Source: a virus
Direction: 5' to 3' (one strand)
DNA length: 51,896 nucleotides
Virus record (IMG/VR): IMGVR_UViG_3300042321_002434
Span: 1-51,896 of that record
In this document: piece by piece, positions 3,737-49,629 of the stretch
Position numbering within the stretch: the stretch's first letter is position 1
How the letters are laid out: each line of letters begins with the position of its first letter
Notes under the pieces: model-generated
Told to the model about the DNA's origin: nothing
What the model saw: the letters and a program-made list of their open reading frames with translations, nothing else
Databases searched by the model: none
Position numbers and translations under genes: made by a program

Positions 3737-3752
3737 ATAGTGGCTGATATGT

Positions 3753-4388
3753 TCAGGCTTTCGACACGTTTCCCGCGGAATCCTTGGTAAAAGCGGTTTC
3801 CTGCGCGTTCCTGCCCATTTCCGCATGCCATGTGTCCTCGGCTACCACCGCATAGTCGAGCGGATGGCCGGCCTTGCAGAACGAATCGTCGCGCCAAAGG
3901 ATGCGGTTGTTCGGTTGGGCCGTTATCTGGCCGGTTCCATCTTCGAGGAGCAGCAAATGGTAGCACTTATGCTCCGGCGGATACTGTGAATAGCCGTTGT
4001 CGGTGTGATCGAGGGTGAACCAATAGGCACCGGGGGTCAGGTTTCCGTCTCGGCGCCGGTATTCGCAGCCCATTTCCCGCAGGTATTCGTAGCGGGTCAC
4101 GCTGAAATCCCATCCATGGCAGTCCCACATTTGCAGGTCGGTCAGGGGGTGGGTATGTCCGGCGGGTTTGTGGTGGAAAAGGGCGTGGAGGGGCATCCTG
4201 GCCCATTGCGCGCCACTCTCGCAGAGGATGGAAAAATGCAGAGCGCGGCTTGGGATGCTTGTCACCCCGAATATCACGCAGGGTTCGTATTGGCCGGCGT
4301 ATTTCTCATCCATTCCGTGCAGGAATCGCTTGTCCACATAGCCGTATAGGTGCTGCGGAACGCTGGCATTCAGGCAGTGGTGGCTCAT
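3753..4388 (-). CDS. Conserved-looking hypothetical protein between terminase subunits
   Basis: 211 residues. Its ATG at 4388 overlaps the TGA of the small terminase (ATGA), so translation is probably coupled. It is rich in aromatic residues, His and Cys, suggesting a compact globular fold, with segments such as MWDCHGWDFSVTRYEYLREM and PGAYWFTLDHTDNGYSQYPP. No nuclease or binding motif is recognised. The location between small and large terminase subunits suggests a packaging-associated or moron role, but nothing in the sequence proves it. Confidence 0.8.
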   Translation of the reverse strand: MSHHCLNASVPQHLYGYVDKRFLHGMDEKYAGQYEPCVIFGVTSIPSRALHFSILCESGAQWARMPLHALFHHKPAGHTHPLTDLQMWDCHGWDFSVTRYEYLREMGCEYRRRDGNLTPGAYWFTLDHTDNGYSQYPPEHKCYHLLLLEDGTGQITAQPNNRILWRDDSFCKAGHPLDYAVVAEDTWHAEMGRNAQETAFTKDSAGNVSKA

Positions 4389-7402: not shown

Positions 7403-7560
7403 TTCACCGGAACCTCATGGCCCCACTTGCTCAATGTTTCCGCGGCCAGTTCCGCAGCGCGCCAGCAATCCTCCCGCGTTTTGCCGTCTTCGCCGCAATA
7501 AACGGCCAGCATCACGCGCAGGGCGTAGGCAAGTTCTCTGGTGTGTTCTTCGTGGCTCAT
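7387..7560 (-). CDS. Hypothetical protein downstream of integrase, 57 aa
   Basis: Start ATG at 7560 overlaps the integrase TGA (ATGA), which favours it over the in-frame ATG at 7575. The protein (MSHEEHTRELAYALRVMLAV...) is helical and acidic with two Cys. Its size, acidity and coupling to the integrase would allow a role as excisionase or directionality factor, but these usually carry a basic winged helix that is not evident here. That role is therefore only a possibility. Confidence 0.6.
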   Translation of the reverse strand: MSHEEHTRELAYALRVMLAVYCGEDGKTREDCWRAAELAAETLSKWGHEVPVNCRKD

Positions 7561-31983: not shown

Positions 31984-34900
31984 CTACTTGGCAAGTTCTC
32001 GCCGGCCGCGGGGCACGGCCATCAGGTTGACCCCTCCGAAAAAGCGCAAAGCCTGAAGTCCGCGGGGCTGGTAGCCAATGGCCGAAGCCTTCGGCGCGAC
32101 CAGTTGGGTTGATGTCTGCCCGCGTTTGTCCGTTGTCTCGATGACCGCGTAGGCTTCCGGCCCCACGCCCATGCTGCGAAGCCGCTCCAAGTTGGCCACG
32201 GCAGGAACGCTTGATGTTCCACGCATATTGAATTGCTCCACCGGCAGACCAGCCAGCTTCATAAAATCGGCTTGTTGGGCCGGTGTCATGTTGAGTTTGG
32301 TCGCTTGCTGGCGCAGGGCGTCGATGGTGGCGCGCTTTTCGTCCGCGGGCATATTGGACTTTTGAACGGCTTTCTTCTCTTTGCTGAACCAGCTTTCCGC
32401 GCTGAATGGCGCATAAGCTGAACGGCCCAATTCACCGGTGGTCGGAACAGTGCGCGATAAAAACGGAGTATTGGCGCGAATGGCGTCCAGAGGACCGGCA
32501 GAGTATCCCAAAGGCTCGGCCTCGCGGGACCGGCGCATGACCGGATCAACCATGCGGGTAGCAAACTGCCGCCAAGGGGTAGGGAGGACGCCGGCCGTGC
32601 CCACATCGTAGGCAACCTCGCCCAAGCGGAAGCCCACCGGCTTGTCTTGGTCAAAGGAGGACATTCCGACAATCTTGGCCAGCATGCCCAAGCTGACGTA
32701 TTCCCCAGAAATGTCGGAGAATTGCTCCAAGGCTTTGTCTGTTTTGCCGGACAACAGAAGACCCATGGCAATACCCTCTTTCAAGTAAGGGTAGTTGCGA
32801 TACCTCCACCAAAGGTCTTTGTCTTCACCGGAGCCGTCATCCAGGGTGAACTCGGTTTCCCGCATCAGGCCATGGGCAAAGATAATGCGGGCCAACCTCG
32901 ACAGGTTGAGGCGGTTCTTGGTGCGGAAAGCGGCGTCCAACAGGTTGCCTTCCTCATCGACGCTGGCCCCCAGAAGCGGATCGTCCTCGTCATCGTCAGC
33001 CATGGCAATCGCCGTGCCTATAGCCGCCAGCGCGCCCATGGTCATCAGGTTTGCCATGCCCTCGATGCGCTGCTGCTTGGTGCGACCGGCCATGATTGTG
33101 TTCAGGGCGGCATCGAAGGTCAGCCGCTTGAATTGGCGGGCCATGTTGTAAGGCCATTTGACAAACGGAAATAGGCCGCGCTTCACAATTTGACCGGTGG
33201 CGGTCATGGATTGCTGCGGATCGAGCCAAGCCGGCACGTTCTGGTAGTCCATCAAATACATCACCGTTGTGAGATAAACGTCCCGGTGAATCTCGGCCGG
33301 CGCATTGGCGATCCAATTCTGCTGCCATTCCCGCCGGTTGGTATCATTTGATACCTCGCCACGGCGTTTGGCCTCGTTCCACGCTACCTGCGCGTGGGCG
33401 CGGTAGGCCGCGTAGGCCATTTGCTGCTTCTGGCGGATGTCGATTTCGCCGTAGCCCACCGCCTGCATGAAGGCACCGCCCAAGTTGAGCCGTCCCAACT
33501 GCTGTTTGACAGAGATATTCGGGTCAATGTCCATGGCTTCGAGGCCGGTCTGGTCATCGAACATCTCCCGCGGAACCACCTTGCCGATCCGTTCCTGCTG
33601 CCATTGCGGGAACCGGTCGGTGATGAATCCGCGCAGTAGATACATCAGTTCATATCCGCCCAATTTGGCCGCGTTGACATCGCCGGCCGCTATATTGACC
33701 AGCGTGTAATTGAGCCGGTTGCCCATGCGCACCACCTTGATGATCTCGTTGCTCGCCCAATTCGTGATAACGGTAAACGGCGTGGCCAGAAGCCCCGCGT
33801 TATACCGCTCCAGAAGCCCAGAGAGGATGCGTGTCAGAGCGTTGTTTGTAACCTGACGAGATATGCCCAACATCAATTCGCGCTCCACTTCCTTGTGGAT
33901 CATCAGCCCGCGGCCGCGCAGCCGGAAGGCATCACCCAAAATCTTGGCCATGGCCTTCTGATCCTGCGGAGACAGCGCGCCGGTCAGGGCGGGGAACGCC
34001 TTGGGATTGAGCCGGCGGGCAATCTTCACCGCTTCGAGGAGTTTGCGGTAGGTCTGGTCAAGCTCGACATAGTTGCTGGCTTGATCCTTCGGAATCCGGT
34101 TGCCATCCACCGCGGCCGCCTCGATCAATCGCTGGCGGGTCAAGACGCGGATTTTCTCGCGGTGGGCCTCCATGGCGCGGACCGAAAAGCCTTCAAACAG
34201 ATTCTTGATGTTGCCGGTTTCGCGGGCCTCGCCAGCCTTCATCTTGCGGGCGCCGGACCGGAAGGACCGCAACAGGCTTCCGATCATGGCGCCCAAGGTC
34301 TTGGCCTCGGCAACGTCCGGCGTGTAGCCCTCGACATACGGAAGATCGGGGAGGGGAACCCCGCCAAACATATCTTTCAACTCCTGCGGCCACTCGTTGA
34401 ACAGGTCGCGCAGCGCGTAGCGGTTAAACTCGGCCGTCATGGTGCCCTGCGGCCCCATGTAGCGCGCCTCTTGCATCCCCGGCATAATCCACCGGTCCAG
34501 ATAGTGCGCGGATTCGGGGTAGCGGGCATGGAAGTCTTGGTAAATCTGTTGCTGCACCTCAACCGGCATGGATTTCAGAAGCAAATACCGGCCGCCGTCG
34601 ATTTCCGGCCCAAGCTCAAAGCGGCCGCGGTCGGTCGTGATCATGTCGCCCACCTTGAACTTGTTGGCCCGCACCTTGGCCGCGTTGATCGTTCCGGCGC
34701 GCATCAGGAACGGCTTGAACACAAAGTCGCCGTTGTCATCGAGGCGGTCCACTTCGAGGCGCGCGGCCACCGGCAGCAATTCATCCAAGAAATTTTGCAA
34801 CCGCTTCTTGTTTTTGCTCCAGAAGGCCGGATAGCCAAAGGCCCGCGTAATATCGTCGCGGATTTGCTGCATCATGCTGTTGATCGTCGCCGCGACCAAA

Positions 34901-37900
34901 GCCTCGTTGCGCCGGTTGTCCAACATGGCCGCCTTGGCGCCCGGAGCGTAAAACTCCAGCTTGTCCATCCGGCCGCGAAGCCAAGTGCTATACCACTCCT
35001 TGGCTCCAGGTAAAAGCGGGCTATTCGGCGTCTGATCGGCCGCCTTGCGGAAATCCTGTGCTTTCTGCCGTTCCTCGGCAATTTGCGCCAGTTCGGCCTC
35101 CACGGATGGACGCGCGGCCGCCACTTTGGCTTCTTCGTCATCCAACTGCTGCCGCATACCCTCGACGCGGCCGGTATCAAACCGATCCTTTTGGGCAAAC
35201 ACATCGTCAACACTGTTGATTCCGCGTTTTGCCAACTGCCGGCGCAGCGTGTTTTGCGTGGCCACCATGGTTTGCTGCACCGCCTGCTTGGAAATTCCTT
35301 CCTCCGCACCGATGGCGTCATAGGTCTTGCCAGCCATAACGCCCTGCCAAATGCGCCGGGGGCGCGCGGGCAAGTCATCCATGATCTCGCGGATAATGGC
35401 CAGATCGTCATTGTTGGGCGCGTCCTCAAACTGGTCAGCCAGCATGCTTTGGCCGGTTTCTCCGTCCATTTCGCCCACCGGCGCGTCCAGTTCCCGCACT
35501 TCGGCGCCAGCAATCCGCCGCTGTTCGCGGTAGAGATTGTTCAGCCGGTTGCGGATTACCCGCGTGGCATAGGCTCCAAAAGGAACCCCGCGGCCCGCGT
35601 CGAAAGATTGTGCGGCTGTGAGAAGCCCGATCCGGGCCTCCTGAACCTTGTCCTCGAAGTCGATCCGCGGGATGTTGAACCTGCCGGCCAGCGCGGTCGC
35701 CAGCCCAAGGTTGTCAGTTACAAGGGCTTCGATGCGCCCATCTTCGGTTTGTCCGCCAGAACCCGCGCTCTGCGCAGGACTTCCAACTGCTCTTGGGTGA
35801 GTTTCACGCCATTGGGCAGCAAGTCCAACGAAAGTTTCGGGTTCTTCTGCGAGGAGTTCATCTGTTGATTCATAATCTCTTAGTTGTGCTTGTTCAAATA
35901 TCCATTGCGCCTGATCGTCCATGTCGGCGTCCATATCCTCCGGCGTGACCAGACGGCGGGCGCCGGCCACCACCGGCGAATTGTCGGAAAAATTGACATC
36001 TTCGCCGTTGATTTGCGTCACCGGACTGCGGTCCATGACCCGCTGCATCACTTCGGAATCCGTGATGCCGCCAAATTGGTCGGCAAAAGCGCGGCCTTGG
36101 TCGTAATTTAACCCACTTACCTCAACGCGCAGTTCGCCCGACACCCGCCGCCGCTCAATGCGCCAGCCATTGGCCAGATTCAGATTGGCCCCATCGGTCA
36201 TCACCATGTCGAACGCCTGCTCGGCGGTCATGGTATTGCGCGCGCCCATACGCATGCGCAGCCCCGGAACATCCTTGGATGGCACCTGCACCCCAAGCAT
36301 TGGCTCGCCGGTGGTCGGAGTGAACCGGAAGATGCGCGTCCGCTCCAAGCCAAGCCGGTCCCAGACCGGAAGCATCACGCCAATCAGGAAATGGTCTTTG
36401 CGTTTGGTTTCCTTGGGCGCGTTCGCTATTTGCGAATCCCAAAGAGTCGCCGCCTCGTCGCGGGTAACTTCTTGGTAGTTGCCGGCGTCCACCAGCTTCC
36501 CGCCTTCCATGCGTCCGGGCTGCAAGGTGACATCGGCCTTTTGCACCATCGAATTGCCAACAATGCCCACCCGCCGCCATTGCGGCACCACTGAACCATT
36601 GTCCAGCGTCCGCGGCGGCCCTTCGCGCAGGGCAAAGACGTTGCCGCTCCGGCGGTTCTTGACCCACATAATGGCCCCGCCGCGCTCGGCCTCCTCGAAG
36701 GTGGTGAAAATCTGATCCTCAAAGGCTTCAATTTCTACCAGCCGCGTGGTCGCTCCAGTGTCCGGTTGCGTATAGACCACATCATCGGAAACCACCTCGA
36801 CACGCTCGGCGCGGTAGTTTTGCGTCCCTGGATCAAAGCTGCCGTCATCCTTGGCCGTCTCGATCCGCCGTTCTAACCGCTCCATGAACAAGTCGAAAAG
36901 CGTGTTCTGCCGGTCCAGCGGAAGCGCAAGGATGCGGTTCAAAAATTGCGTTATCGGCGGCCGCTGGTCATCGGCCAGCCCGCCTTGCTGCGATACCAGC
37001 TTGTTGACCTTCCGGCCTTCGCGCGTGGTGACGTAGCCCAAAGATTCGCTGAACTCATCAAAAGTGAATCCCTCGACCCGCTCGTTATACAGGTCGTTCA
37101 TCAACCGCCACAGAGCATCAGCCGAATACGGACTTTCCAGATTGTCACTGTCGCTGAACATGCCTTGGCCGGCCGTCCGGCGTTCACCGGTGGTCAAGGC
37201 GCCCAACTGCGCCAACCGGCGGGCAATCGAGGCGATAAACCGCTTGTGACCCTTGATGTTTGTTTCGAGGAGGCGATAAATCGGCGCGCTGGCTTGATCG
37301 GTGCGGTGTGTCCGCCCAAATCCCTGAAGCGCGTTGTCGGCCCGCCATCCGGCCTGAACCAGATAGTGAACGCGGCGTTGCTTGTTCTTGGCCCGATTGC
37401 TGGCGTGGAAACTGAACCCGGTGCCGCCGGCATCGGAGAAAATCAAAATTCGGCGTTTGCCATCTTGGAAATCTTGCGCATCGGCCCGCGCTTGCGCCTT
37501 GCTCCGCTTCTCGATCTTGGTTTCAGTCTTGCCACCTTTGCGGACTGTAACCACGCGCTGCGTCCGTCCGGTCACTTCTGCCACGCTATCCGGTCCAAAC
37601 CGGTTGATTATCTGGTTAAGCGGGCTTTCCGGCATGTCGATCAGGGCGACCTCATCCATCAAACGCTCTTTCTCGGCCACGGCCGCGGGGGACTGCACAG
37701 GCTGGCCTTCGCTGTTGAGAACTTTATTCCAAACAGTGCGCTCCGGGTTGTCAGGGTCTTGCACTTCTTCGTAAAGATCCGTGGGGAAGCTCTTGTCCAA
37801 GAAGTCCAAAAGGATTTGCCGCGGCGACAAATCCAAATCCTCCATCGGGATTTCGTCGCCTTCGGCCTCGGTGCGGGCCTTGGCCAGAGCACGCTTCTCG

Positions 37901-40900
37901 ACCGCCTCGCCGGTATTGACCAGTTGCAGGACCGCGCTATTGCCGGCCGCAAGCTGCTGATCCATGTCCTCCAGCAAAGCCGGTAGCTGCAAGCCGGTTA
38001 GGAGTTGGTTAAAGAACCGTTGCTGCGCGCCCCAGAAGGCACTGGCCGCGTTTGACCTGGCTCGGCGGCTATTGACCGCGCCGGTTTCGTCCATGATGCG
38101 GTCCATGTTGGACAACACCGCTTGCCATGCCGTAGCAATCCGATTGTAAAGTCGTTCCTGATCCGGCGTCAGGTTGTGCGTCAGGCGGGCAAACTCGACG
38201 CCCTTGTAGGAAATGCTGCGAGCCAGATACAAACCCTGCGCCTTCAGGTCGCGCGCGACCACTTCCATGGCCGAAACACCACCGGCGCGGATTTTATCAA
38301 AGAAATTCTGCTTGTTCGGGAACGGCGTTCCTTCGCCCCAGATGCCAAGCCGGTCCGCATAGGAAAGATTCTCCACTTCAGTCGCGCCGGTGGCCGACAC
38401 ATAAACCACACGCGCATTGGGCAGAAGTTTTTGCAGGTCAACCACAGCCACGCCGGCCTGACTCGGTTGCTTCAACCCGCGGTTGCCTTTGACCGCAATC
38501 GCGTTGCCTGCCTTGTGCGCTTCGTCCAAGGCAATCACGCCGTCAAAATCTTTGCCAAGCCACTCGGCAATCTGCTTCATGCGCGAGTTGTGCTCTTTGA
38601 TCTTGTCCCACCAACCCTGCGCGCCTTCGGTCAATGTCTGGTGCCCACCCTTGAGCGTGTCGTAAGTGGTGAACAAAATGCCATCGGCCGCCTCGACCTT
38701 CTTGCCCTTCTTGACCTTGTTCAGCATGAGCACCTTCTTCGGGTCCAAACCAACATCCTCGACATCGCGCTTGGCGTCCTCGATCAGCCCGCCCGACTTG
38801 GAAATCCAGACCGCTTTCTTCCTGCCTTGGCGCAGATTGTCCATGATGATGCCGGCAATCTGGCGGCCCTTGCCGACTCCGGTGCCGTCACCAATGAAAT
38901 ACCCGCGGCGTTCTCCGCTCGGCAGCACTTGGCTATGCGCCTGACCTGCATAGACAATGTTTTCCAGACTCGTCTCGGAAATCCGTCCCTCGGTAATGAC
39001 TTCCTTGGCCAAGTTCGGCGTGTAGGTCGGATCGGGTGGGGGAACGCTGGCCATGGCCGCGCTCTCGACCAGCGGAGCCAAATGTTTCTGCGCACCCGGA
39101 ATCCTGACCTTGGCCGGAGTATAGAGGGCGAACACATCGTCCTCGTTTTGAATGCTGCGCGCGCTGGTCTGCGCGCCTTCGACCGTGATTCCGGTCTGTT
39201 CTACGGATTCTCGGCCGCTTCCCGGTATAACTGGCTGTCCGTCACCTGTCCGTTGCCCATCAGTTCGTTGAGGATCATCTGTCCCGCGTCCTTCAGATTG
39301 TCCGCGTCCAGCAAGTCCTCCATCTGAAACGCCTCGCTCAACTCGTCCAACACTGTCTGCGGGTCGCGCCGTTTCGCTCTGTCGAACGCCTGTCCTTCCG
39401 GTCCGTCCTCCAGACCTTCCGGCACGGCTTCCAGTGCCAGTTCGAGCACCGGCATCAGTTCGGGCAGTTCCCGCCGACTCCAGCGATTGAGCATCGCCAG
39501 TGCCAGCTTGTTCAGCGGATGGTTGGATAGTTGGTCGGTCATTGCGGACTCCTTGTAGTAATGTAATCAGATCGGCCAAATCGTCAATTTGGCCCTGAAT
39601 GATGTTCTTGTTGGTTGAACCGGCCGGCGGTGCCACTTTGTCGATGACAAGGAGCCGATTGCTGAAACTTGTGCCGTATTTGGTGTAATTGCGGCCATCC
39701 ACCCAGATGTTGGCCCGCACATGGTATTGCTTGGCCATGTTCTGCCACCATTGGCGGAAGGTAGGTGTATCCAAGCCCATACCTTCGCCCACAATGGCCA
39801 CCAGACGCCCGCCAGGGCGCAACGCCTTCAACGCGGATTCGACATGCTTGGCGCCCACCATGGTCTGGCCGGTCTTGCCACTCTTGGCCGCGTTGGAGAA
39901 CGGCGGGTTCATGTTGACCACAGTGGGGCGGGGGAGGGAACCGGAGGCAAAGCGCGGTTCCAGAATGGCGTCAATCTGCTCGGCGTTCTCGGTAGTCAGA
40001 TGGTCAAAGCCCATCTCACGCAGGAAGTCGATGCGCTTGGACTCAAGCTCGTTGGCAATGATCGTCGCGCCATCCAGCTTCGGATAGACCGCCAGCCCGC
40101 CAATGCCCGCGCTCGGTTCGAGCACCACATCGGCCGCCGTGGCTCCGCTTACCCAATGCGAGACAAAGCTAAACACCGGCGGGGTAGAGAATTGCTGATA
40201 GCGGTCGGTGCGGCCGCTGCGCTTGGTCTGGGTCGGCAACCGCTGTTGCAAATCCTCCAGTGCCCGGATCGCGCCCACCGGACCGAAAGACTTCCAGCCT
40301 TGGTCGGCATCGAACACCCCGCCGCGCGCCAAGAACAGGTTGACCGCCAGTTCCATCGCATCATAGGCATCTTTAACTTCGTAAGTGCCAGCCGCCAGGG
40401 TGCCGCCCCAAGCCGCATCAGTGATCGGTTGAATGTCTTTCTCGAAATTCAGTTTCCGGCCTTCCTCCAACAGCGGAAGAATCCCCTCGGCCGCCACCCG
40501 CTGCGGATTGGCCTCCGGCCGCTCGATCCGGTCGGCCTCGCCGTAGCTGCCCAACAACTCCTCTGGCGTGGTCGCGTTCTCGTTCAAGCCAGCGCGCGCG
40601 CCCACTTCAGAGAACCGCCCGCTCAAGATGTCATCGGCTGACAACAGGATCGGGTTCTGCGGCGAGTTGTCGTAGATCACCAGATCATCGCCAAAAAACT
40701 CGATGTAAGCCGGCAGGGCCGCGTTGAATCCCTTGTGCGCGCCCAAGAGCACCGGAGGCGGCACATACCGCTTGCTGCCAATGGCTCGGAGGAAAGAACG
40801 GACCAATGCCTCGTATGGGTCAATCGTGACCGCAATCATTTTGGTGCGGTAGCCCTCGGCGCGAAGGTTTCGGGCTTGGGTCAGCGACTTCTCGGAGTTC

Positions 40901-43900
40901 TTCATGGTGCCGTCGATGACCAATGGGAAACTGTTCTGCCGCGCCCTGCGTTCGATTTCCTCGGAAATGGCAGAGGCTTCAGGGTGCGTAATGACTGAAC
41001 TGCGCGAATCGTTCAGTTCATTGAGCAAATCGTATTCCGGCAGAAACTCCCGAATCTCGTCAGGGTTGCTCAAGACGCGGCCCTCGTCAGGTATGTTGCC
41101 CTTGGCCACCTCGCGCCGGAGGAGGCTTGTCTTTCCTGCCGCACCACCGCCGCCCATGAACACAACCAGCGGATTGTCCTGCGATTGCGGCTCCTTAACG
41201 TCCGACAACGCTTGGCGGTCGTTCCCGCCGCGCATGAAGTATTCGATGATGGTTTCGCGGAGCACTTGCCGTGACACTTCGCCGGCCGGAATACCCAAAA
41301 GTCGATTGGCCAGTGATCCTGCTACAATGGTCGCCGTGTCTTTCTCCAGCGTGACCTGTAAACGTGAATCGTTCGGATCGGAAATACCTTCCGGCAGGTT
41401 GGGCATGCCAAGGTCCGAATATCCATCGGGCCAATCGCCAAAGGCTTTTGCTATGCGCTCCTCGCGCCCCTGATCGTCAAGCCGTAGCTTGTTTAGAACC
41501 CGCTCTTGATCCCGCGAGCCTCCATATACGCCTCCATCATCTTCCAGTCGGCGCCCGCCCGCTCGTTCGTATAGACCCCCGGTTTGTCCCCCGGTTTCGG
41601 CGGCGTCAGCTTGAAGGGCGGGAGATTCACCGCCGGTTTCTTCGCTTGGTTGTCTGTCGTCACTTTCACCAACTTGATTGTTACCGGCAGCCCCACTTTC
41701 GTCAACCGCTTTTTGGTAAATTTGCTTCCAAGAAACCTGCACATCGGGGTCTGTTTCTGTTCCATTTGCCCACACCTGCGACAACAGCTTGGGCGTCATG
41801 TCATTGGGAAACCTTTCGACAAGGCGCGCCGACATTGTTTCCGGCGTGTTGAATCCCTCGGCATACAGCGCATCCGCCACCCGCGTCAGAGCCGCAATGA
41901 AATCTGCTCCGGCCGGTTGTGCCGCGGCCGCCAACACCATTCCCTCGTAGCCGTAAATCGGGCGTCCGGTGGACAACCGGCGCTCGACCAGATCAAACAA
42001 ATCAGATGGCGTGGCCAAATCGCGGAAGCCCATAATCTGCAAATCCTTGATAAGAGCATCCAGATCCGGCGCGTTGTTGCGGAACAAGTTAAACGTGCCC
42101 TTCAACCCGACCGCATTGCCAGGGCGTTGCGCTTCTCTGATCCGCTGCAACTCACCGGCATATTGGTAAACCTTGGAACTGGTCTTGGCCGGCAATCCGC
42201 CCGCCTCGCGCACCGCATCGAGAATGTCGATACCGCCTTCACGCACCGCATCGACCGCTTCCGCTTCCTGATCGGCCAGAAGTTCCGCTTCGAGGGCTTC
42301 GCGCTCTGTATCGGTCAGGCCATCTGGCCCGCGGACTTCCGCCGGCTTCAAAAACCGCTCCAGATCAGCAAATGCCGCATCCAACTCGGTCGCCGGTTGC
42401 GGGGCGACAACTTCCCGCGGCTGCACCTTGTCCAGTTCAGCCTCGGCCCACGCAATAACGGCCTCCGCGCTCTCGCGCTGCTTCTTGGAGGTCATGCTGT
42501 CCGTAGCCCTTATGGTGCGCGACTCCTCCGCAATAATGTATTCGAGCATGGTCCGCACCGCCTCATCGCGGCTGGCATAACCTTGGCCATCGTTGCTGAA
42601 TTTCAGGCTCAAGCCAAACGAATGGCCTGAATAATCGCCGGTCCTGTGATCGGTGCGTAAATTGGCCAGCCACCGGCCGTCAGCCAACTCCAAGACACGA
42701 ACCTCCGCGCTCACCGGCTGCGACTTCTTGGCCGGGAAAGCAATAACCTCTGCGTCCGCTTCAGAATAGACGCCCGAATCGTTAGGCTTGCGGCCGTTTA
42801 CGTCCAAAATCACGTTGGCCGCCAGTTTTTCGGGCTTCGCCGCAAACTTTTTAATCGGGGGAGGCGCAACTTCTTCGGCATCTCGCAATTTCTGCAAGAC
42901 CGGCTTGGCGCGATCCGCGTCCGCAATCAGTTTGCGCACTTGCCGGCCCAATTCCTCCCCGCCTTTTTTGGTCACTTCTTTGATGAAGGCCAAACGCTGC
43001 TTGGAGCTTGTGCCACTGTAACCGGTGTAGTTGTAAGAACCCATCCGGCCGGTAATCGGCTTTACGCCGGCCGCTTTGGCCAACCGCGCCAATTCCTGAT
43101 CCAAGGCAAACATCAAAATTGAGCCCTCGTTGGAATTGGCCGCCTGCTGCATAGCCTTCAGGAATCCCAAATCTTGAACAGCCCGCACATAGGTCGGGTC
43201 CGGCATGAACGGATCGTCGGCAGTAAATCCATCATCGGCCACTTTGACCGCCTTCGGTTTGGTCGCGCGCTTGCGCGGACGCTTGGGCGCTGTGTCAATC
43301 CTTTCGGCAACGGCCGGTTGCGGAGTCTCCACGGCCTCTGCGGGCGCTTGCGCCACCGGCTCCGGTGCCACCACACTCGGCGCCTCCTCGACCGCTTCTA
43401 CAGGCGGGGCCATGGCCGGAGGATTCTGCGGAGGCATCACCCTCGGCTCAACCATCTGCGGAGGACGCACCACCGGCCGCGCCGGCCGCTCCTTGGCCAT
43501 GTCTGCACTTTTCTTAAAGGCTTCGCGCACCTGATCCAAGTTCGTCACCAGAATCGCCGCATCCGCCAGACCAGAAATGATCAAGAACGGCTGCGCCGTG
43601 GCCACACCGGCCACCAACTTGATGCCCACGCCAACTGTAGCAAAAACCACTCTCGGCCGGTTCAAATTGCCCTGCCGTGCCGCTTGCGCCAGCCGATACG
43701 TCCCAAAGAACGCCACGCCACCGCCAAAAACTTCCCCGATGTTGGTGGATAGCCAATCGGTAGCAACTCGGTCGCTCACCGCGCCATCGCGGACCAATAG
43801 TTCAACTCCAGGGAAGGGGATGCCGCTCTTGGTCAGACTGTCCTTGAGCAACTGCAAAATGAAATCCGGCACCGCGCTCCACCCAAACTGCCCCACCACA

Positions 43901-46900
43901 TTGTCCAGATTGGTCAGGAAATCATGCCCGAACCAAACGCGGTGCAATCCCGGTGTCGCCATCTTGTCGGCAATCTCCGCGGCAAACTCACTGTTGCCCA
44001 CCTTGTCGATCCACTGCCCAACCTCACTGCCGGGAACCAGCTTATCATACATCTGCGTCCCGACATTGACCGTGTTGCCATACCGGTCCACCACACCGAA
44101 GTCTATGCCGGTGTCCACAATCTTGTAGCCAAAGGCCGCCGCCGCGTTCTTCACCGCTGCCCGCAATGCCTCACTTGTCCAGTTTCCGGTGTCCTCGGCC
44201 GGAACAAATGCCTCATTGGCCGGCAAAGCCGCATCTTCCGCCACGGTTTCCGCCGTTTCCGTAGCCACGGCCGCCGGCGCCACCCCGCGACCCTCCAAGC
44301 GGGCCGCCTCGGCCTCGATCTTGGCCGCCACATCCTCAAACTCGGCCCGCGTTTGGTCATCGAGCGTGCCCATCAGCTTGTCACGCAGCCATTCGGCAAG
44401 GTTTTCCAACAACTGACGAAGGTTCGAGGCAAACGCCGGATCAATCTCGGCCATCCTGTCCACATCCTGCGCAAAGGCCACCTGCTCCGTAGTCACACCA
44501 TCCAGCTTTGCCGACAGATACATGCGCCAAAACTCCAAGGCCATCTGCTGCGGATCGGTCTGCACGTTGCGCCAATCCTGATTGGCGTCCGTCAACACTT
44601 CGGACGGATAATAAGCCTCGACCACCCGCCGCTTAACCACATCGGGCAACCTGTTCCAATCGTCCACAAGCTCCATCGGTCCGCGCACCTCCGTAGTCGC
44701 CAAATGCAACACTTCCTCGCGCGCCATGGCCGCAATCCGCGCCGGCCGGTCCGCCGCCGGAACATTAGCCAACGTCTTGGCCAACTGGCCTTGGTCAATA
44801 AAGATCGTCGGCCCGCGCCCCACCTGCACACCAATCGCCGCCATCCCGCCGTTGGGCATCGAAATATACTGTTTCTTCTCCTCCGGCGGCAAAGCCCGGT
44901 ATTGTTCATCCGTAATCGGGTTGGTCATCCGCCGCGTCACATACAACCGCGGCGTAACTACCACATTGGGCAAAGCAGGGTTGTTGAACAGCACCGGTGC
45001 TGCCGCCTCAACCATCGCCGTCACTGTCTTGGCCGTAGGCTTGGCCTCGAAAATAGCCGAATCGACAGCCGCCGCGGGAGATGTCAACTCCGGTTGCACT
45101 GCCTGACCGCCCGCCGCCTGCACCGGACCAACTTGCACCGGTCCATCCGACAACCGCCGCTCAATCGCCGTAGCCCAACTCTGCTGCTTGCCCTGCGCCT
45201 CCTCTGGGCTGGCTGCCTTCACCGTTTGCGCCACCGTCACCGGCCGCAAGCTGCCCTTCGGCGTGTAAGTCGCCTCAAAGGTGTAGTCGTCAGCCACATC
45301 ATTTTGAGCATCCGCCGCTTCATTGGGATCAAGAGCCAATGGCAACTGGTCCGCTTGCGCCTTGTCCTTAATCAATACTGCACGGCCATTGACAAACCGC
45401 CACACCCCACCGTAACGCTGCTTGGACCGCGCATCTGCCGCAGCCTTGCGCTGCGCAGGCGTGAGCGCAGGCACTTGTGGCCTAACCGGCGTCTGAACCT
45501 GTGGCTGCGCTGGTGCCTGTGCTACCGGTTGCTGCGGCAACGGAGGAGGCTGCACCGGCGCCTGAGTCTGTTGCTGCGTCTGCTGCACCGGAACCGCGCT
45601 CTCCCCACCACTCACCGCGTCCGCCTCGGCCAACTGCTCGGCCTCTTGCTTCTTAAAGAACAACTTGGCCGTAGTCGGAGCCAACTCCTCCAACTGCAAC
45701 AACAGCGAATCACTCAAAATCACCCGCTCGCCGCGCACATACGCGCCGTTCTCCAACAAAACTTGCTCCTGTGCCGGCGTGGTCGGCGTCCCGCTGACCA
45801 ACCGAACCGCCGCATCCACCACAATCTTTTCACCTTCCGGCAACCCATTGACCTCGCGCACCGCGGCAATCGAACTCTCGCTCACCCCGACCACATCGAG
45901 CATCGTCGCCCCAATCTGGCCGCGAATCGTCTCGCGCTCGGCCAAAATTTCAACAATCCGCGGGTTGACGCCAAGCACCGGCGTCCCGCCCGCTCCAGGC
46001 ACACCTATCGTCGGCGGCAAAGACTTGAACTCATTGGCCAGACGCAAATCCTCGGTCACTAAAGCCTGCAACTGCGAGTTAAGCGTCCCGACCAGCCCAC
46101 GATTCTGATAACCCTGCGATTGCTTGGCCTGATCCAGCGTGATCGGCGTCTCGGCATATCGCGTGTTGTAGTCAGCCACATACTGCTTCAAAGCCTTGTC
46201 CTGTGCCGCCGCATACCGGCCGGCTTGCAAGCTACCCAAAGCCGCGCCAATCGGCGCATGGATCGAACTCAACCCCATGCCGCCAATGAATCCCGACAAC
46301 CCCTGCGCGGCCGCATCGCCCAAAGTCGCGCCCGCCTCGCCAAAGGAGGCAACCATTTCCTCGAACATCTCGCCGCTGCCGCTCGCCCACGCCATTTTGG
46401 ACATATCAACCGCCGTGTTCCGCAACTGCTGGCCAGCCGTTAGCACTGTTCCGGGCGTCCGCGTCACCTTGCCCATGTTGAAGAAAGCCTCCTGCATGCC
46501 CTCCAGCTTGCCCACAGCACGGCCGGCACGATTCAGCGTCAGGCCCGCGCGCTCGGCCGTGGCTAACCACTTGCCCGCCACCAACATCTTGCCCGCGCCC
46601 ACACCAACCAAGTTGCTCGCAATCTCAATCGCCGTCTCGGTCAACGGAGCCACCGTGCCGCCACGCAAGGCCATCTGAAACGGACCGAACAGCGAACTTT
46701 CGCTGATCTGGTTGTTCTGTGAGGCATAATTAGCCGCCCAATTCTGAATGGCCAAGTCGTGCTGGCTGTTGAACGCGCCTGATTTGAACGTGGACCAATA
46801 AGCCGGACTCATGGTTTGCATGTAACCGGCCATCGCACGGTTCATCGTGCTGCGCGGGTCCATCGGGTCGTTCTCGTAAGCCAAACGTGTCGGCACACCC

Positions 46901-49629
46901 ACAGTTCCATCACCGCCCAAAAAGCCTTCAGCATAACCGGCCGCACCACGCAAAACATCGGCCACGCGGCCTTGTGGCATCTGGTGAAACGCCTCGGAGG
47001 CCACGCGCACGTTTTCCGAAAGTCGTTTCAACTCACGCTCATCGCCGCGGCCAGTGTTTAAGTAGGCATGCAAATCGTTGATTGCGCTGTTCAGCTTGCC
47101 GCCCTTCTCGCCGTAATACAGTTTGCTGCCGGCCTCGGCCGCGCGCGCCAACCCTCCTGACTTAAACAAAATGGGCGCCACCGCCGCCGGATTTAGGCCG
47201 GCAAACAACCGGCCCATCGTGTCGGCCTCAAGCAAGGAGGAGGGGAGTCTGTCGGTCACGCCTCTGATAAGATTGGATGTCGCAATCTGGGTCTGCGCCT
47301 TGATCAGTGTGCGCTCCTCGTTTGAAAGCCATTTGCTGCCGGTCAAGTAATCAGCCGCAAGTTTGGGGGCTTGCGAAAACATAATTCCAATGCTTGAGCC
47401 AAAAGCATTTTGCAACGTGCTGTTCAGAGCGTTGTTCGCCCAACCAACCAAAGACTCATCACCAAGCATCTTGTCCCGCGCCTGAACAAACGCCGGAAGG
47501 TTGAAATCGGTCTTGCGCGCCGTCTCTTGGTAATACTGCGACATGAACGCATCGCGGGCCGCGTAAGTGTTGGCCGAACTAATGCGTCCGCGCTCCGTGT
47601 TGGCCACTGCGCCCACCGCCGCCGCAATCACTCCGGCTCCAGGTATGGTGCTGGCAACATTGGTCAACGCCGCCTGCCACCAATTCATCTTGGGTAGCGC
47701 GGCCTGTTGCTCCCTAAACTGTTTGGCTGCCGCGGTCGGGCTGTTCTTGGCCCACTGGTCAAACGAGTCGGGCAATGACGAAAAGTCGGGGTTGGTGCCG
47801 TAAGCTGTCTTGCTTAACAGGCGCGCGTCCTGCGCGCTTAACTGGCCTTGTTGATAGAGCCAACCAGTGTCCAGCCTGCGGTCTTCCGGCCGCAACGAGG
47901 CTTGGCGCGGGTCCATTTCAGCAATCAGGTCGGCGCGCTGCCGGTCGTTGGCCGTTTGCCACTGGTCAAGCGTGTCGCGCAACCGCTCCGGCGACCACCG
48001 GCGCGACTCCCACATCTCGGCCGCCGCCTTCTGCCAATCCATGGCCTCAACTTCCTTGCGCACTTCAGGAACAACCTGCGAACCCATCTTGGGCTTGGCC
48101 GAATCCTCGAACCACTTGGGCATACCCAGGTATTCGGGCATCCCGCGGTAGTAGTTACCGGAAGCAAACGAGGGCGAAGACATCGCCAAAGGATCAAGCT
48201 CAACAGAGCCAACGCCATACTGGTCAAACTTGAACTTACCAATCGGCTCGGCCGTTGTCTTCTTGCTCCACGGAAGCGGCACACCCCAGAACGTGTTGCT
48301 CGTCTCTTTCGTCGCGTAAAGTGTTCCACCCTCCAGCTTGTAGCCCGGAGGAGCGTGAATCACATCCTGACCGGCCAGTTTGGCCGACAACTGGCGCTCC
48401 ATGGCTTCGGGCGTGAACCAACTCGGAGGAGCATGAGTTACGCCGGTCGCATCTCGAACAGCCTTGGGCAGCATGATCTCCGCCTCGGCCGACAGACGCG
48501 CCGTGGCATCCTGCGAGCGGGCCTGCATCTTGCCCATGTTCCACTGGTTGGCCTCTGGGCTGACAGTTTGCTTGGTGGACCAATCAGCAAAAGCATTAGC
48601 GTTGGCCACGGAAGCGTCTCCCAATCGTTTGTTGCCCGCCTCGATGCTGGCCCAAATCGAATCAAACAGGCTGATAGGCTGACTGCTTTTGTTGTCCCTG
48701 CCATTCTCGCTCAAGTAGTTGGACATGCCCGCCGTGGCTTCGGCTCTGCGGTCCGTGTTGGGCAGCTTGCCATCGTCGTAGTAAAGGCGGCTCTTGTTGT
48801 CGTAGTAGTCCTTGCGCTGCGCATCCACGGCTTCGCGGCCGGCCTTGTATTCAGCCCGTGCGCGGTAAGCATCAATTTCAGCCTTTGCCTGCCGCTCAAC
48901 TTTGGCGTCCAACACGCCCTGAATCTGCTCTTTCTCGCCTTGCAGTCTGGCAACCAAGCTCTGATCGCCAGACAATTTTTCGGCATCGTTGATTCGCTTA
49001 TCAAGGTCGCGGATGCGGGCGCGGTCGCTGGCGATGTCTTTATTCAACATCGTCAACTCGCCGGTCGCGTCCTGCATTTCCTGCTTCAGTGCGCGTGTCT
49101 TGTCAGCCAAATCGCGGTCAAAGCGGCGGTCCTCAGCAGTTTTGCGGTCCTTGTCGTAGCCAACCCACTTCCACTTCATGCCGTCCACAACTTTGTAAAC
49201 GTGGCCGTCTTTCTTAACCGTTTTACCGTCCTGCTCTGGGATTTGTTCGATCAGCTTGCCCTTGTCATCGCGGATGTAGGCTTTGCCAGTAACCGGATCA
49301 AACATGGTGCCCGACTTGCCCCACTTGCGCATCGGCGCGCCGGAAGGTGCAGTAATCGGGATGACTCGGCCGTTTCTGGTGAAAAACGCAATCGCATCGC
49401 GTTCGTATTGGCGGCCCTGTTCTTTACTTGCCGCCCGCTGCTCACGTTCGGCCGAAGCCATGGCCCGCTGCTGCTCGCGGTCAGCTTTGGCCGCGGCTTT
49501 CTCCATTGAAGAAAGCTCTTTCAGGTCAAACTCTGGGATGTTTCCCCGCTGCCTGCGTTCTTGCAGTCCAGACAATGCACCTCGATCACCGGCTCTGGCC
49601 GCGCTCAGTAAGTCGTTCAGCGTTGCCAT
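31984..49629 (-). CDS. Giant polyvalent protein (5,881 aa) with kinase, methylase, helicase and sigma modules
   Basis: Start ATG at 49629. Visible order: coiled coil (1-260); Ala/Gly-rich membrane-prone helices (about 650-1250); Gln/Pro linker (1340-1400); a degenerate zincin-like EEVLH (about 1638); a hydrophobic hairpin (about 2000); Zeta-toxin-like P-loop GGGGAAGKTS (about 2825-2835) in a domain to 2990; N6-adenine methylase with EPSAGIGG (3171) and NPPF (3241); strawberry-notch/DarB-like helicase with GDGTGVGKGR (3583), DEAH (3702) and GFGRTHRTDQ (about 4085); sigma-70-like region 2 (4636-4712) and region 4 (4755-4800); an LPD38-like C-terminus with KRGLFPFVKWPYNMARQ and one membrane segment (about 5533). 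Polyvalent proteins are packaged and injected with DNA. Here it would block restriction and steer host transcription. It ends with PRGLQALRFF, echoing the small-gene tails. Confidence 0.9.
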   Translation of the reverse strand: MATLNDLLSAARAGDRGALSGLQERRQRGNIPEFDLKELSSMEKAAAKADREQQRAMASAEREQRAASKEQGRQYERDAIAFFTRNGRVIPITAPSGAPMRKWGKSGTMFDPVTGKAYIRDDKGKLIEQIPEQDGKTVKKDGHVYKVVDGMKWKWVGYDKDRKTAEDRRFDRDLADKTRALKQEMQDATGELTMLNKDIASDRARIRDLDKRINDAEKLSGDQSLVARLQGEKEQIQGVLDAKVERQAKAEIDAYRARAEYKAGREAVDAQRKDYYDNKSRLYYDDGKLPNTDRRAEATAGMSNYLSENGRDNKSSQPISLFDSIWASIEAGNKRLGDASVANANAFADWSTKQTVSPEANQWNMGKMQARSQDATARLSAEAEIMLPKAVRDATGVTHAPPSWFTPEAMERQLSAKLAGQDVIHAPPGYKLEGGTLYATKETSNTFWGVPLPWSKKTTAEPIGKFKFDQYGVGSVELDPLAMSSPSFASGNYYRGMPEYLGMPKWFEDSAKPKMGSQVVPEVRKEVEAMDWQKAAAEMWESRRWSPERLRDTLDQWQTANDRQRADLIAEMDPRQASLRPEDRRLDTGWLYQQGQLSAQDARLLSKTAYGTNPDFSSLPDSFDQWAKNSPTAAAKQFREQQAALPKMNWWQAALTNVASTIPGAGVIAAAVGAVANTERGRISSANTYAARDAFMSQYYQETARKTDFNLPAFVQARDKMLGDESLVGWANNALNSTLQNAFGSSIGIMFSQAPKLAADYLTGSKWLSNEERTLIKAQTQIATSNLIRGVTDRLPSSLLEADTMGRLFAGLNPAAVAPILFKSGGLARAAEAGSKLYYGEKGGKLNSAINDLHAYLNTGRGDERELKRLSENVRVASEAFHQMPQGRVADVLRGAAGYAEGFLGGDGTVGVPTRLAYENDPMDPRSTMNRAMAGYMQTMSPAYWSTFKSGAFNSQHDLAIQNWAANYASQNNQISESSLFGPFQMALRGGTVAPLTETAIEIASNLVGVGAGKMLVAGKWLATAERAGLTLNRAGRAVGKLEGMQEAFFNMGKVTRTPGTVLTAGQQLRNTAVDMSKMAWASGSGEMFEEMVASFGEAGATLGDAAAQGLSGFIGGMGLSSIHAPIGAALGSLQAGRYAAAQDKALKQYVADYNTRYAETPITLDQAKQSQGYQNRGLVGTLNSQLQALVTEDLRLANEFKSLPPTIGVPGAGGTPVLGVNPRIVEILAERETIRGQIGATMLDVVGVSESSIAAVREVNGLPEGEKIVVDAAVRLVSGTPTTPAQEQVLLENGAYVRGERVILSDSLLLQLEELAPTTAKLFFKKQEAEQLAEADAVSGGESAVPVQQTQQQTQAPVQPPPLPQQPVAQAPAQPQVQTPVRPQVPALTPAQRKAAADARSKQRYGGVWRFVNGRAVLIKDKAQADQLPLALDPNEAADAQNDVADDYTFEATYTPKGSLRPVTVAQTVKAASPEEAQGKQQSWATAIERRLSDGPVQVGPVQAAGGQAVQPELTSPAAAVDSAIFEAKPTAKTVTAMVEAAAPVLFNNPALPNVVVTPRLYVTRRMTNPITDEQYRALPPEEKKQYISMPNGGMAAIGVQVGRGPTIFIDQGQLAKTLANVPAADRPARIAAMAREEVLHLATTEVRGPMELVDDWNRLPDVVKRRVVEAYYPSEVLTDANQDWRNVQTDPQQMALEFWRMYLSAKLDGVTTEQVAFAQDVDRMAEIDPAFASNLRQLLENLAEWLRDKLMGTLDDQTRAEFEDVAAKIEAEAARLEGRGVAPAAVATETAETVAEDAALPANEAFVPAEDTGNWTSEALRAAVKNAAAAFGYKIVDTGIDFGVVDRYGNTVNVGTQMYDKLVPGSEVGQWIDKVGNSEFAAEIADKMATPGLHRVWFGHDFLTNLDNVVGQFGWSAVPDFILQLLKDSLTKSGIPFPGVELLVRDGAVSDRVATDWLSTNIGEVFGGGVAFFGTYRLAQAARQGNLNRPRVVFATVGVGIKLVAGVATAQPFLIISGLADAAILVTNLDQVREAFKKSADMAKERPARPVVRPPQMVEPRVMPPQNPPAMAPPVEAVEEAPSVVAPEPVAQAPAEAVETPQPAVAERIDTAPKRPRKRATKPKAVKVADDGFTADDPFMPDPTYVRAVQDLGFLKAMQQAANSNEGSILMFALDQELARLAKAAGVKPITGRMGSYNYTGYSGTSSKQRLAFIKEVTKKGGEELGRQVRKLIADADRAKPVLQKLRDAEEVAPPPIKKFAAKPEKLAANVILDVNGRKPNDSGVYSEADAEVIAFPAKKSQPVSAEVRVLELADGRWLANLRTDHRTGDYSGHSFGLSLKFSNDGQGYASRDEAVRTMLEYIIAEESRTIRATDSMTSKKQRESAEAVIAWAEAELDKVQPREVVAPQPATELDAAFADLERFLKPAEVRGPDGLTDTEREALEAELLADQEAEAVDAVREGGIDILDAVREAGGLPAKTSSKVYQYAGELQRIREAQRPGNAVGLKGTFNLFRNNAPDLDALIKDLQIMGFRDLATPSDLFDLVERRLSTGRPIYGYEGMVLAAAAQPAGADFIAALTRVADALYAEGFNTPETMSARLVERFPNDMTPKLLSQVWANGTETDPDVQVSWKQIYQKAVDESGAAGNNQVGESDDRQPSEETGGESPALQADAAETGGQTGGLYERAGGRRLEDDGGVYGGSRDQERVLNKLRLDDQGREERIAKAFGDWPDGYSDLGMPNLPEGISDPNDSRLQVTLEKDTATIVAGSLANRLLGIPAGEVSRQVLRETIIEYFMRGGNDRQALSDVKEPQSQDNPLVVFMGGGGAAGKTSLLRREVAKGNIPDEGRVLSNPDEIREFLPEYDLLNELNDSRSSVITHPEASAISEEIERRARQNSFPLVIDGTMKNSEKSLTQARNLRAEGYRTKMIAVTIDPYEALVRSFLRAIGSKRYVPPPVLLGAHKGFNAALPAYIEFFGDDLVIYDNSPQNPILLSADDILSGRFSEVGARAGLNENATTPEELLGSYGEADRIERPEANPQRVAAEGILPLLEEGRKLNFEKDIQPITDAAWGGTLAAGTYEVKDAYDAMELAVNLFLARGGVFDADQGWKSFGPVGAIRALEDLQQRLPTQTKRSGRTDRYQQFSTPPVFSFVSHWVSGATAADVVLEPSAGIGGLAVYPKLDGATIIANELESKRIDFLREMGFDHLTTENAEQIDAILEPRFASGSLPRPTVVNMNPPFSNAAKSGKTGQTMVGAKHVESALKALRPGGRLVAIVGEGMGLDTPTFRQWWQNMAKQYHVRANIWVDGRNYTKYGTSFSNRLLVIDKVAPPAGSTNKNIIQGQIDDLADLITLLQGVRNDRPTIQPSAEQAGTGDAQSLESAGTARTDAGARTGTGSRAGRSGGRTGRTGVRQSETARPADSVGRVERGVSDGGLAGRGQSEGRGTDDPQRTDGQRTGDGQPVIPGSGRESVEQTGITVEGAQTSARSIQNEDDVFALYTPAKVRIPGAQKHLAPLVESAAMASVPPPDPTYTPNLAKEVITEGRISETSLENIVYAGQAHSQVLPSGERRGYFIGDGTGVGKGRQIAGIIMDNLRQGRKKAVWISKSGGLIEDAKRDVEDVGLDPKKVLMLNKVKKGKKVEAADGILFTTYDTLKGGHQTLTEGAQGWWDKIKEHNSRMKQIAEWLGKDFDGVIALDEAHKAGNAIAVKGNRGLKQPSQAGVAVVDLQKLLPNARVVYVSATGATEVENLSYADRLGIWGEGTPFPNKQNFFDKIRAGGVSAMEVVARDLKAQGLYLARSISYKGVEFARLTHNLTPDQERLYNRIATAWQAVLSNMDRIMDETGAVNSRRARSNAASAFWGAQQRFFNQLLTGLQLPALLEDMDQQLAAGNSAVLQLVNTGEAVEKRALAKARTEAEGDEIPMEDLDLSPRQILLDFLDKSFPTDLYEEVQDPDNPERTVWNKVLNSEGQPVQSPAAVAEKERLMDEVALIDMPESPLNQIINRFGPDSVAEVTGRTQRVVTVRKGGKTETKIEKRSKAQARADAQDFQDGKRRILIFSDAGGTGFSFHASNRAKNKQRRVHYLVQAGWRADNALQGFGRTHRTDQASAPIYRLLETNIKGHKRFIASIARRLAQLGALTTGERRTAGQGMFSDSDNLESPYSADALWRLMNDLYNERVEGFTFDEFSESLGYVTTREGRKVNKLVSQQGGLADDQRPPITQFLNRILALPLDRQNTLFDLFMERLERRIETAKDDGSFDPGTQNYRAERVEVVSDDVVYTQPDTGATTRLVEIEAFEDQIFTTFEEAERGGAIMWVKNRRSGNVFALREGPPRTLDNGSVVPQWRRVGIVGNSMVQKADVTLQPGRMEGGKLVDAGNYQEVTRDEAATLWDSQIANAPKETKRKDHFLIGVMLPVWDRLGLERTRIFRFTPTTGEPMLGVQVPSKDVPGLRMRMGARNTMTAEQAFDMVMTDGANLNLANGWRIERRRVSGELRVEVSGLNYDQGRAFADQFGGITDSEVMQRVMDRSPVTQINGEDVNFSDNSPVVAGARRLVTPEDMDADMDDQAQWIFEQAQLRDYESTDELLAEEPETFVGLAAQWRETHPRAVGSPAQSAGSGGQTEDGRIEALVTDNLGLATALAGRFNIPRIDFEDKVQEARIGLLTAAQSFDAGRGVPFGAYATRVIRNRLNNLYREQRRIAGAEVRELDAPVGEMDGETGQSMLADQFEDAPNNDDLAIIREIMDDLPARPRRIWQGVMAGKTYDAIGAEEGISKQAVQQTMVATQNTLRRQLAKRGINSVDDVFAQKDRFDTGRVEGMRQQLDDEEAKVAAARPSVEAELAQIAEERQKAQDFRKAADQTPNSPLLPGAKEWYSTWLRGRMDKLEFYAPGAKAAMLDNRRNEALVAATINSMMQQIRDDITRAFGYPAFWSKNKKRLQNFLDELLPVAARLEVDRLDDNGDFVFKPFLMRAGTINAAKVRANKFKVGDMITTDRGRFELGPEIDGGRYLLLKSMPVEVQQQIYQDFHARYPESAHYLDRWIMPGMQEARYMGPQGTMTAEFNRYALRDLFNEWPQELKDMFGGVPLPDLPYVEGYTPDVAEAKTLGAMIGSLLRSFRSGARKMKAGEARETGNIKNLFEGFSVRAMEAHREKIRVLTRQRLIEAAAVDGNRIPKDQASNYVELDQTYRKLLEAVKIARRLNPKAFPALTGALSPQDQKAMAKILGDAFRLRGRGLMIHKEVERELMLGISRQVTNNALTRILSGLLERYNAGLLATPFTVITNWASNEIIKVVRMGNRLNYTLVNIAAGDVNAAKLGGYELMYLLRGFITDRFPQWQQERIGKVVPREMFDDQTGLEAMDIDPNISVKQQLGRLNLGGAFMQAVGYGEIDIRQKQQMAYAAYRAHAQVAWNEAKRRGEVSNDTNRREWQQNWIANAPAEIHRDVYLTTVMYLMDYQNVPAWLDPQQSMTATGQIVKRGLFPFVKWPYNMARQFKRLTFDAALNTIMAGRTKQQRIEGMANLMTMGALAAIGTAIAMADDDEDDPLLGASVDEEGNLLDAAFRTKNRLNLSRLARIIFAHGLMRETEFTLDDGSGEDKDLWWRYRNYPYLKEGIAMGLLLSGKTDKALEQFSDISGEYVSLGMLAKIVGMSSFDQDKPVGFRLGEVAYDVGTAGVLPTPWRQFATRMVDPVMRRSREAEPLGYSAGPLDAIRANTPFLSRTVPTTGELGRSAYAPFSAESWFSKEKKAVQKSNMPADEKRATIDALRQQATKLNMTPAQQADFMKLAGLPVEQFNMRGTSSVPAVANLERLRSMGVGPEAYAVIETTDKRGQTSTQLVAPKASAIGYQPRGLQALRFFGGVNLMAVPRGRRELAK
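35718..35873 (-). CDS. Nested ORF in +1 frame before the sigma module, 51 aa
   Basis: ATG at 35873, TAA at 35720-35718, wholly inside the giant gene but in the frame shifted by +1. The product MNQQMNSSQKNPKLSLDLLP, then NGVKLTQEQLEVLRRARVLA, has a balanced composition with an amphipathic helix. The giant frame over the same bases is a low-complexity linker. An AAGAG lies 3 nt before the ATG, a weak ribosome-binding site. Likely real but short; an ancestral separate gene or a still expressed one. Confidence 0.5.
   Translation of the reverse strand: MNQQMNSSQKNPKLSLDLLPNGVKLTQEQLEVLRRARVLADKPKMGASKPL
39201..39542 (-). CDS. Nested ORF in +1 frame between methylase and helicase, 113 aa
   Basis: ATG at 39542 with AAGGAG six bases upstream, the best ribosome-binding site of the three nested ORFs. 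The product (MTDQLSNHPLNKLALAMLNR, later DPQTVLDELSEAFQMEDLLD) is Leu- and Glu-rich with clear amphipathic helices, as in a folded acidic protein. The giant frame over the same DNA (residues about 3363-3477) is an Arg/Gly/Thr/Ser-rich, unstructured linker. Normal composition in this frame and abnormal composition in the giant frame argue that selection acts mainly on the nested gene. Confidence 0.7.
   Translation of the reverse strand: MTDQLSNHPLNKLALAMLNRWSRRELPELMPVLELALEAVPEGLEDGPEGQAFDRAKRRDPQTVLDELSEAFQMEDLLDADNLKDAGQMILNELMGNGQVTDSQLYREAAENP
41493..41765 (-). CDS. Nested ORF in +1 frame before the Zeta-like module, 90 aa
   Basis: ATG at 41765 with AGGTG seven bases upstream. The product (MEQKQTPMCRFLGSKFTKKR, then LPVTIKLVKVTTDNQAKKPA, ending MEAYMEARGIKSGF) is basic, with strands, a Pro/Lys linker and a final amphipathic helix. 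The giant frame over these bases (residues about 2622-2713) is a Gly/Asp/Glu/Gln linker. It uses the same +1 frame as the other two nested ORFs. No family recognised. Confidence 0.6.
   Translation of the reverse strand: MEQKQTPMCRFLGSKFTKKRLTKVGLPVTIKLVKVTTDNQAKKPAVNLPPFKLTPPKPGDKPGVYTNERAGADWKMMEAYMEARGIKSGF
43293..43310 (-). promoter_or_regulatory. Dyad element, copy 17, inside the giant gene
   Basis: The coding strand reads TTGCCGAAAGGATTGACA and encodes AERIDT in a Pro/Ala linker of the giant protein. It may mark a former gene boundary or an internal entry point; no clear start codon follows at the usual distance. Confidence 0.45.

Follow-up and report, generated by a model that had tools for sequence, protein, structure and literature searches.

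We identified a sigma-70-family module inside a giant protein of 5,881 aa encoded by an uncultured phage; judged by homology, this giant carries a complete small sigma factor with two intact domains. The DNA analysed, hereafter the window, is the whole of positions 1 to 51,896 (51,896 nucleotides) of IMG/VR virus record IMGVR_UViG_3300042321_002434, nearly all of whose genes lie on the minus strand. One third of the window is taken up by the giant gene, whose frame contains no stop and whose product has an estimated mass of ~0.65 MDa. From N to C terminus it consists of ~1,100 aa, a zeta-type kinase, a methylase, a helicase, the sigma module and a further ~1,080 aa (Table 1). We hypothesise that the giant is a virion-borne polyvalent protein of a short-tailed phage and that its sigma module directs host polymerase to phage promoters, an account that we hold about equally likely to be right or wrong. 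Packaging, delivery, core binding and promoter choice are what we infer for the giant, its injection from where the gene lies and from how far the product resembles polyvalent proteins; the sigma domain could equally act late in the producing cell, or simply bind or block RNA polymerase.

Table 1. Features of the window; aa positions refer to the giant protein.
Feature	Position	Strand	Basis or remark
Terminase-like large subunit	1907..3826	minus	PHROG terminase 2.2e-9; tblastn to annotated TerL genes
Portal gene, 678 aa	29923..31959	minus	directly downstream of giant; PHROG 1216 5.1e-9
Giant polyvalent-type protein	31984..49629	minus	5,881 aa, frame uninterrupted; gene adjoins portal gene
C-terminal part, aa 4801-5881	31987..35229	minus	kept in both relatives; LPD38 trace weak only
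Sigma-70-family module, aa 4633-4800	35230..35733	minus	TIGR02937 match at 35233-35733
Sigma region 4, aa 4743-4800	35230..35403	minus	helix-turn-helix at 35328-35269; TIGR02937 to model end
Acidic linker LDAPVGEMDGETGQSMLADQFEDAP, aa 4706-4742	35404..35514	minus	alignment; low pLDDT
Sigma region 2, aa 4636-4705	35515..35724	minus	four helices, DKVQE...IGL...RGVPFGAYATRVIRN; Sigma70_r2
Strawberry-notch-type helicase	36823..39087	minus	AAA_34 aa 3515-3830, Helicase_C_4 aa 4003-4269; Pfam 4.7e-118, 1.4e-86
N6-adenine-methylase-like domain, aa ~3135-3364	39538..40227	minus	PHROG methylase matches to 3.1e-12; NPPF, aa 3241
Zeta-toxin-type kinase domain, aa 2809-2989	40663..41205	minus	Pfam PF06414 6.9e-28; Walker A GGAAGKT, aa 2828
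N-terminal part, aa 1-1100	46330..49629	minus	without known domain; kept in both relatives

The original prediction, which had placed a sigma-70-like module with a region 2-type helix set and a region 4 helix-turn-helix at 35200-35724, was borne out. These coordinates correspond to aa 4636-4810, and all four peptides quoted for it are in frame, three within region 2 (aa 4639-4651, 4658-4677 and 4683-4698) and one within region 4 (aa 4768-4787). The NCBIfam model TIGR02937 (sigma70-ECF) matches the module with E=2.6e-20 over model positions 4-165 of 165 (72.7 bits, cut-off 42.9). Pfam Sigma70_r2 is found in the giant with E=1.6e-15 (57 bits, cut-off 24), the Pfam region 4 model alone gave no match there, and PHROG 351 (sigma factor) matches the giant at 1.2e-30. 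Sigma factors of known structure (PDB sequences, e.g. RpoS and SigA) were matched down to 1.6e-7 by a single-sequence query and 9.5e-11 by a profile of three sigma-module sequences. Helix-turn-helix motifs are widespread, and the sigma likeness might in principle be a chance resemblance of that kind. As a control, we built a profile from six unrelated sigma factors, none of this family, and searched it against 200 shuffled giants. This profile finds aa 4632-4801; scores are 60.9-62.6 bits for the giants of the window and its closest relative, 54.2 for that of a second relative, and no more than 3.0 for any shuffled giant (n=200). No other of the 588 open frames in the window has a significant match of this type. 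With a TIGR02937 match running end to end, 61 bits against ≤3 in shuffles, and sigma matches in both PDB and BFVD, chance resemblance was rejected and its probability is negligible. We likewise rejected a sigma encoded separately in a different frame, or by a split gene, the frame being single and uninterrupted in all three phages.

Within region 2 lie a stretch forming the -10 pocket, RGVPFGAYATRVIRN, and a core-binding motif, DKVQE (D4660, Q4663, E4664). Its DxxQ (region 2.2), whose D and Q we take to be equivalent to the core-binding D403 and Q406 of E. coli sigma-70, is kept in all three phages and the E in two of them; RGVPFGAYA, PARPRR and NTLR are likewise shared by the three. The linker LDAPVGEMDGETGQSMLADQFEDAP aligns with the RpoD region-3.2 stretch LETPIGEEEDSHLGDFI, and the helical regions 3.0/3.1 are missing. 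The module resembles the ECF and compact sigma-70 factors (TIGR02937), which have regions 2 and 4 without region 3.0/3.1 helices, but unlike them it is embedded in a giant phage protein and retains a region-3.2-like acidic linker. Two tryptophans, W433/W434, help sigma-70 to melt DNA and are replaced in many alternative sigma factors. By alignment this dyad is R/V in the module, so promoter melting would need to proceed in the manner of an alternative sigma factor.

Structure prediction, proposed earlier as a check on the module, returned the region 2 fold and region 4 as well. The AlphaFold2 input comprised five sequences of which two were RpoD, so the model is not independent of sigma homology; both domains were modelled confidently (block pLDDT 75-87 in region 2, 76-90 in region 4), with the linkers between and around them disordered. 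Foldseek searches of PDB and BFVD returned sigma factors. The PDB matches listed were sigma factors or transcription-initiation complexes, with integrative models of RNA polymerase assemblies at rank 1 and in a few other places, and the named matches in BFVD were chiefly phage sigma factors. Since the model does not fix how regions 2 and 4 sit relative to each other, whole-chain TM-scores were low (~0.3).

Two further IMG/VR records contain the same kind of giant with a sigma module at the same place. In IMGVR_UViG_3300034101_002565 (G002) the giant frame is 5,848 aa long and the sigma 85% identical, and in IMGVR_UViG_3300042946_000728 (G001) the frame is 5,833 aa long and the sigma 50% identical, still above the TIGR02937 cut-off. 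TIGR02937 scores across the three phages were 72.7, 73.8 and 50.2 bits against the cut-off of 42.9, and a genome-wide search agrees. The dN/dS of the sigma module is 0.16 (window against G002), from which we conclude that the module is under purifying selection. This bears on whether a captured sigma fragment has become a mere structural or DNA-binding spacer, its contact with polymerase lost. Some flanks are indeed linker-like and domain capture is frequent in such proteins, but the low dN/dS, the retention, at 50% identity, of the residues for core binding and for the -10 pocket, and the presence of both domains in all three phages make a spacer very improbable.

The two domains have diverged differently in the two relatives. 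Region 2 is 96% identical to that of the nearest relative, G002, and 54% to that of G001, whereas region 4 shows 71-74% identity with G002 and is thus the more diverged there. Such a pattern, in which the core-binding region is kept far better than the part reading the -35 element, would suit a module that captures or blocks polymerase, shutting off host transcription by competing with the host sigma for core enzyme or anchoring polymerase to the entering DNA, without any choice of promoter; tethering within a 0.65-MDa protein could also impede normal initiation. Against G001, however, regions 2 and 4 are about equally diverged (47-58%), region 4 is confidently folded in the predicted model, and the TIGR02937 match reaches the model end in all three phages. 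We therefore consider capture or blocking without promoter choice unlikely.

Comparison with G001 further showed that the centre of the giant can be exchanged. The central module of G001 is of another type, a DarB-like methylase with an SNF2 helicase, and shares no similarity with the window giant over aa 2642-4570. Beyond aa 4570 the two giants are 63% identical up to the C-terminal end, and the N-terminus is 48% identical over ~1,000 aa. As the centre is swapped and the ends are kept, the sigma module is among what stays constant in the giant; a central swap around a constant sigma module suggests, on sequence comparison, that the sigma is a core function and not an accessory. Giant length is held at 5,833-5,885 aa despite the differing centre (L028/L030/L032 of G001 against the window), hinting at a size constraint. 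Against G002, the central block 36059-42823 (aa ~2700-4500) has 97-100% protein identity and synonymous divergence is 0.01-0.24 in this block against 0.24-1.7 elsewhere. The near-identical centre with low synonymous divergence indicates that phages have recently exchanged the module of kinase, methylase and helicase.

The giant has the architecture of a polyvalent protein, with kinase, methylase, helicase and sigma in one large chain, and also the gene context: in both relatives its gene lies after the terminase and ahead of the portal, and in the window it adjoins the portal. Injection and a jump-start of transcription are predicted for polyvalent proteins, mostly from gene context; sigma factors go unmentioned in the main text of that study, although transcription jump-starting is named as a theme (PMC5512222). 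Like the phage polyvalent proteins DarB of P1 and PTXU04 gp25, the giant is very large and multidomain, is encoded with packaging and head genes, and combines a methylase and an SNF2/strawberry-notch ATPase with unrelated activities in a protein predicted to travel with the DNA. It differs from them in having a sigma-70 module and in that its own LPD38 is not clear. No Pfam LPD domain matched the giant. Its C-terminus scored above 500 shuffles against a home-made LPD38 profile, on ~36 residues only, and hhalign with two- and three-sequence profiles gave a probability of 2-5%; hmmsearch and hhalign thus yield a weak trace, and LPD38 membership of the C-terminus is not claimed. An AlphaFold model of aa 5150-5600 had a pLDDT of 41, and aa 5260-5600 are 94% and 74% identical in the two relatives.

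The methylase part shares 29% identity over 173 aa (E=4.8e-10) with the LPD38 giant of Vibrio phage 1.205.O. The nearest kin of the helicase are plasmid proteins (54% identity, Methylotuvimicrobium plasmids). Plasmid strawberry-notch/methylase proteins of Proteobacteria are alike in the helicase but reside on plasmids, and our plasmid search recovered these helicase relatives and no fused sigma relatives. Among GTDB genomes the helicase query found 0 relatives and the sigma query housekeeping RpoD genes only, and no relatives of the C-terminus, helicase or portal were found in named phages. A REEVLH motif at 44718-44704 (aa 1638-1642), which is kept in the G001 giant L030 at aa ~630, resembles a variant of the zinc-peptidase HExxH site and has no Pfam match; polyvalent proteins are predicted to undergo processing by zinc peptidases of the HExxH kind.

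In G001 and G002 alike, a single strand carries the terminase, then one or two genes, the giant and a large ORF in portal position, and this ORF in G002 is 92% identical to the window portal; in the window the terminase would precede the giant if the contig ends join. The relatives of the terminase are podoviruses. In several terminase-related podoviruses an LPD38 giant lies late in the structural operon and is packaging-linked, and in Pelagibacter phage HTVC204P the gene for the LPD38 giant comes after those for tail tubular and internal virion proteins, a location corresponding to that of gene 16 in T7. We scanned 11 LPD38 giants from named podoviruses, and no sigma domain was present in any of them. 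Knockdown of one such giant, PTXU04 gp25, strongly reduces plating (PMC11879866).

The same gene position raises the question of whether the module serves instead as a late-gene factor in the producing cell, either fused to a structural or cargo protein or cleaved off it. The giant gene sits among late head genes, and phage sigmas acting within the infected cell are the usual case, as with the SPO1-group genes among our search matches and the sigma factors of group 2 jumbo phages (PMC7824862). A factor inside a late gene must, however, pre-exist its own transcription. Moreover, an internal start for a separate sigma product is not evident, the one candidate, at aa 4570, being poorly spaced and unconvincing, and fusion to DNA-protection modules better suits delivery. 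On balance a late role in the producing cell appears rather unlikely.

We also searched for other means of transcription. Exactly one sigma match was found per record, and T7-type RNA polymerase (PF00940) was absent from the three records (positive control, Roseobacter phage CRP-7, 2.5e-58); therefore these phages likely depend on host polymerase. Pieces of the giant gave no match to Pfam polymerase families, and no promoter word pair between the window genes rose above shuffles. The virion RNA polymerase of N4 has the same proposed purpose, a pre-made transcription component within a giant virion protein, but N4 brings its own single-subunit polymerase whereas the giant would bring a specificity factor only and use the host enzyme. 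The parallel with N4 is one of delivery strategy, not homology. With the stand-alone phage sigma factors (SPO1 group, T4 gp55-type and group 2 jumbo phages) the module shares sigma homology and host polymerase use; those are separate small genes expressed post-infection, in contrast to a module inside a 5,881-aa protein.

In the delivery that we favour, the giant would be synthesised alongside the proteins of the head and of packaging and, most likely, enter the particle and be delivered with the DNA. Its centre (kinase, methylase and translocating helicase; DarB-like in G001) probably guards the entering DNA. The sigma module would bind host core RNA polymerase via region 2, regions 2.3/2.4 and 4.2 would place the polymerase on phage promoters, and transcription would start ahead of any phage gene expression, perhaps driving genome entry. 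A fuller version, in which the sigma resides inside a ~0.65-MDa ejected protein, the other domains of which protect the DNA, and the earliest entering DNA meets a re-programmed host polymerase that may pull the genome in, we regard as doubtful. In favour of a delivered sigma we count the two-domain homology above curated thresholds in three phages, the kept core-binding residues and motifs with the low dN/dS, the staying together of sigma and C-terminus while the centre is replaced and giant length held, and the sole detected sigma factor per record with no T7-type polymerase. Counted alongside these are the terminase - giant - portal order in the relatives, and the LPD38 giants of terminase-related podoviruses with PTXU04 gp25 and the prediction of injection (PMC5512222). 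Against it we count the lack of a clear LPD38 at the C-terminus, the lack of a shared intergenic promoter motif, the replacement of W433/W434 and the faster divergence of region 4 than region 2 against G002.

Both polyvalent giants and phage sigma factors have been described before. The literature covered, which was incomplete and included few subscription journals, contained no report of a sigma inside a polyvalent giant or of a packaged or injected sigma. Among injected phage proteins that act ahead of phage gene expression, the known ones are mainly DNA guards, modifiers of polymerase (T4 Alt) and whole polymerases (N4). A delivered sigma, if true, would be a third way to begin transcription, one that pairs the host polymerase with a specificity factor from the phage, and would be a candidate, testable answer to how transcription starts in phages without their own polymerase. 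It would also extend the repertoire of polyvalent proteins by a domain for initiating transcription, and infection by these phages may bring into the cell a transcription switch made beforehand.

Lastly, some features of the genomes are recorded here. The terminase match in G002 (L033, G002:2474-4354) crosses one TGA. The contig ends of the window, 1-233 and 51633-51896, lie in the same tandem repeat, of 69 bp (23 residues), within a gene, and the reading frames of the two ends match. From this the record is probably a closed ~52 kb genome broken in the repeat, although the repeat frame is disturbed at the joint. A tyrosine integrase gene lies at 7557-8573 (phrog_1, 1.4e-31), and the phage may thus be temperate.
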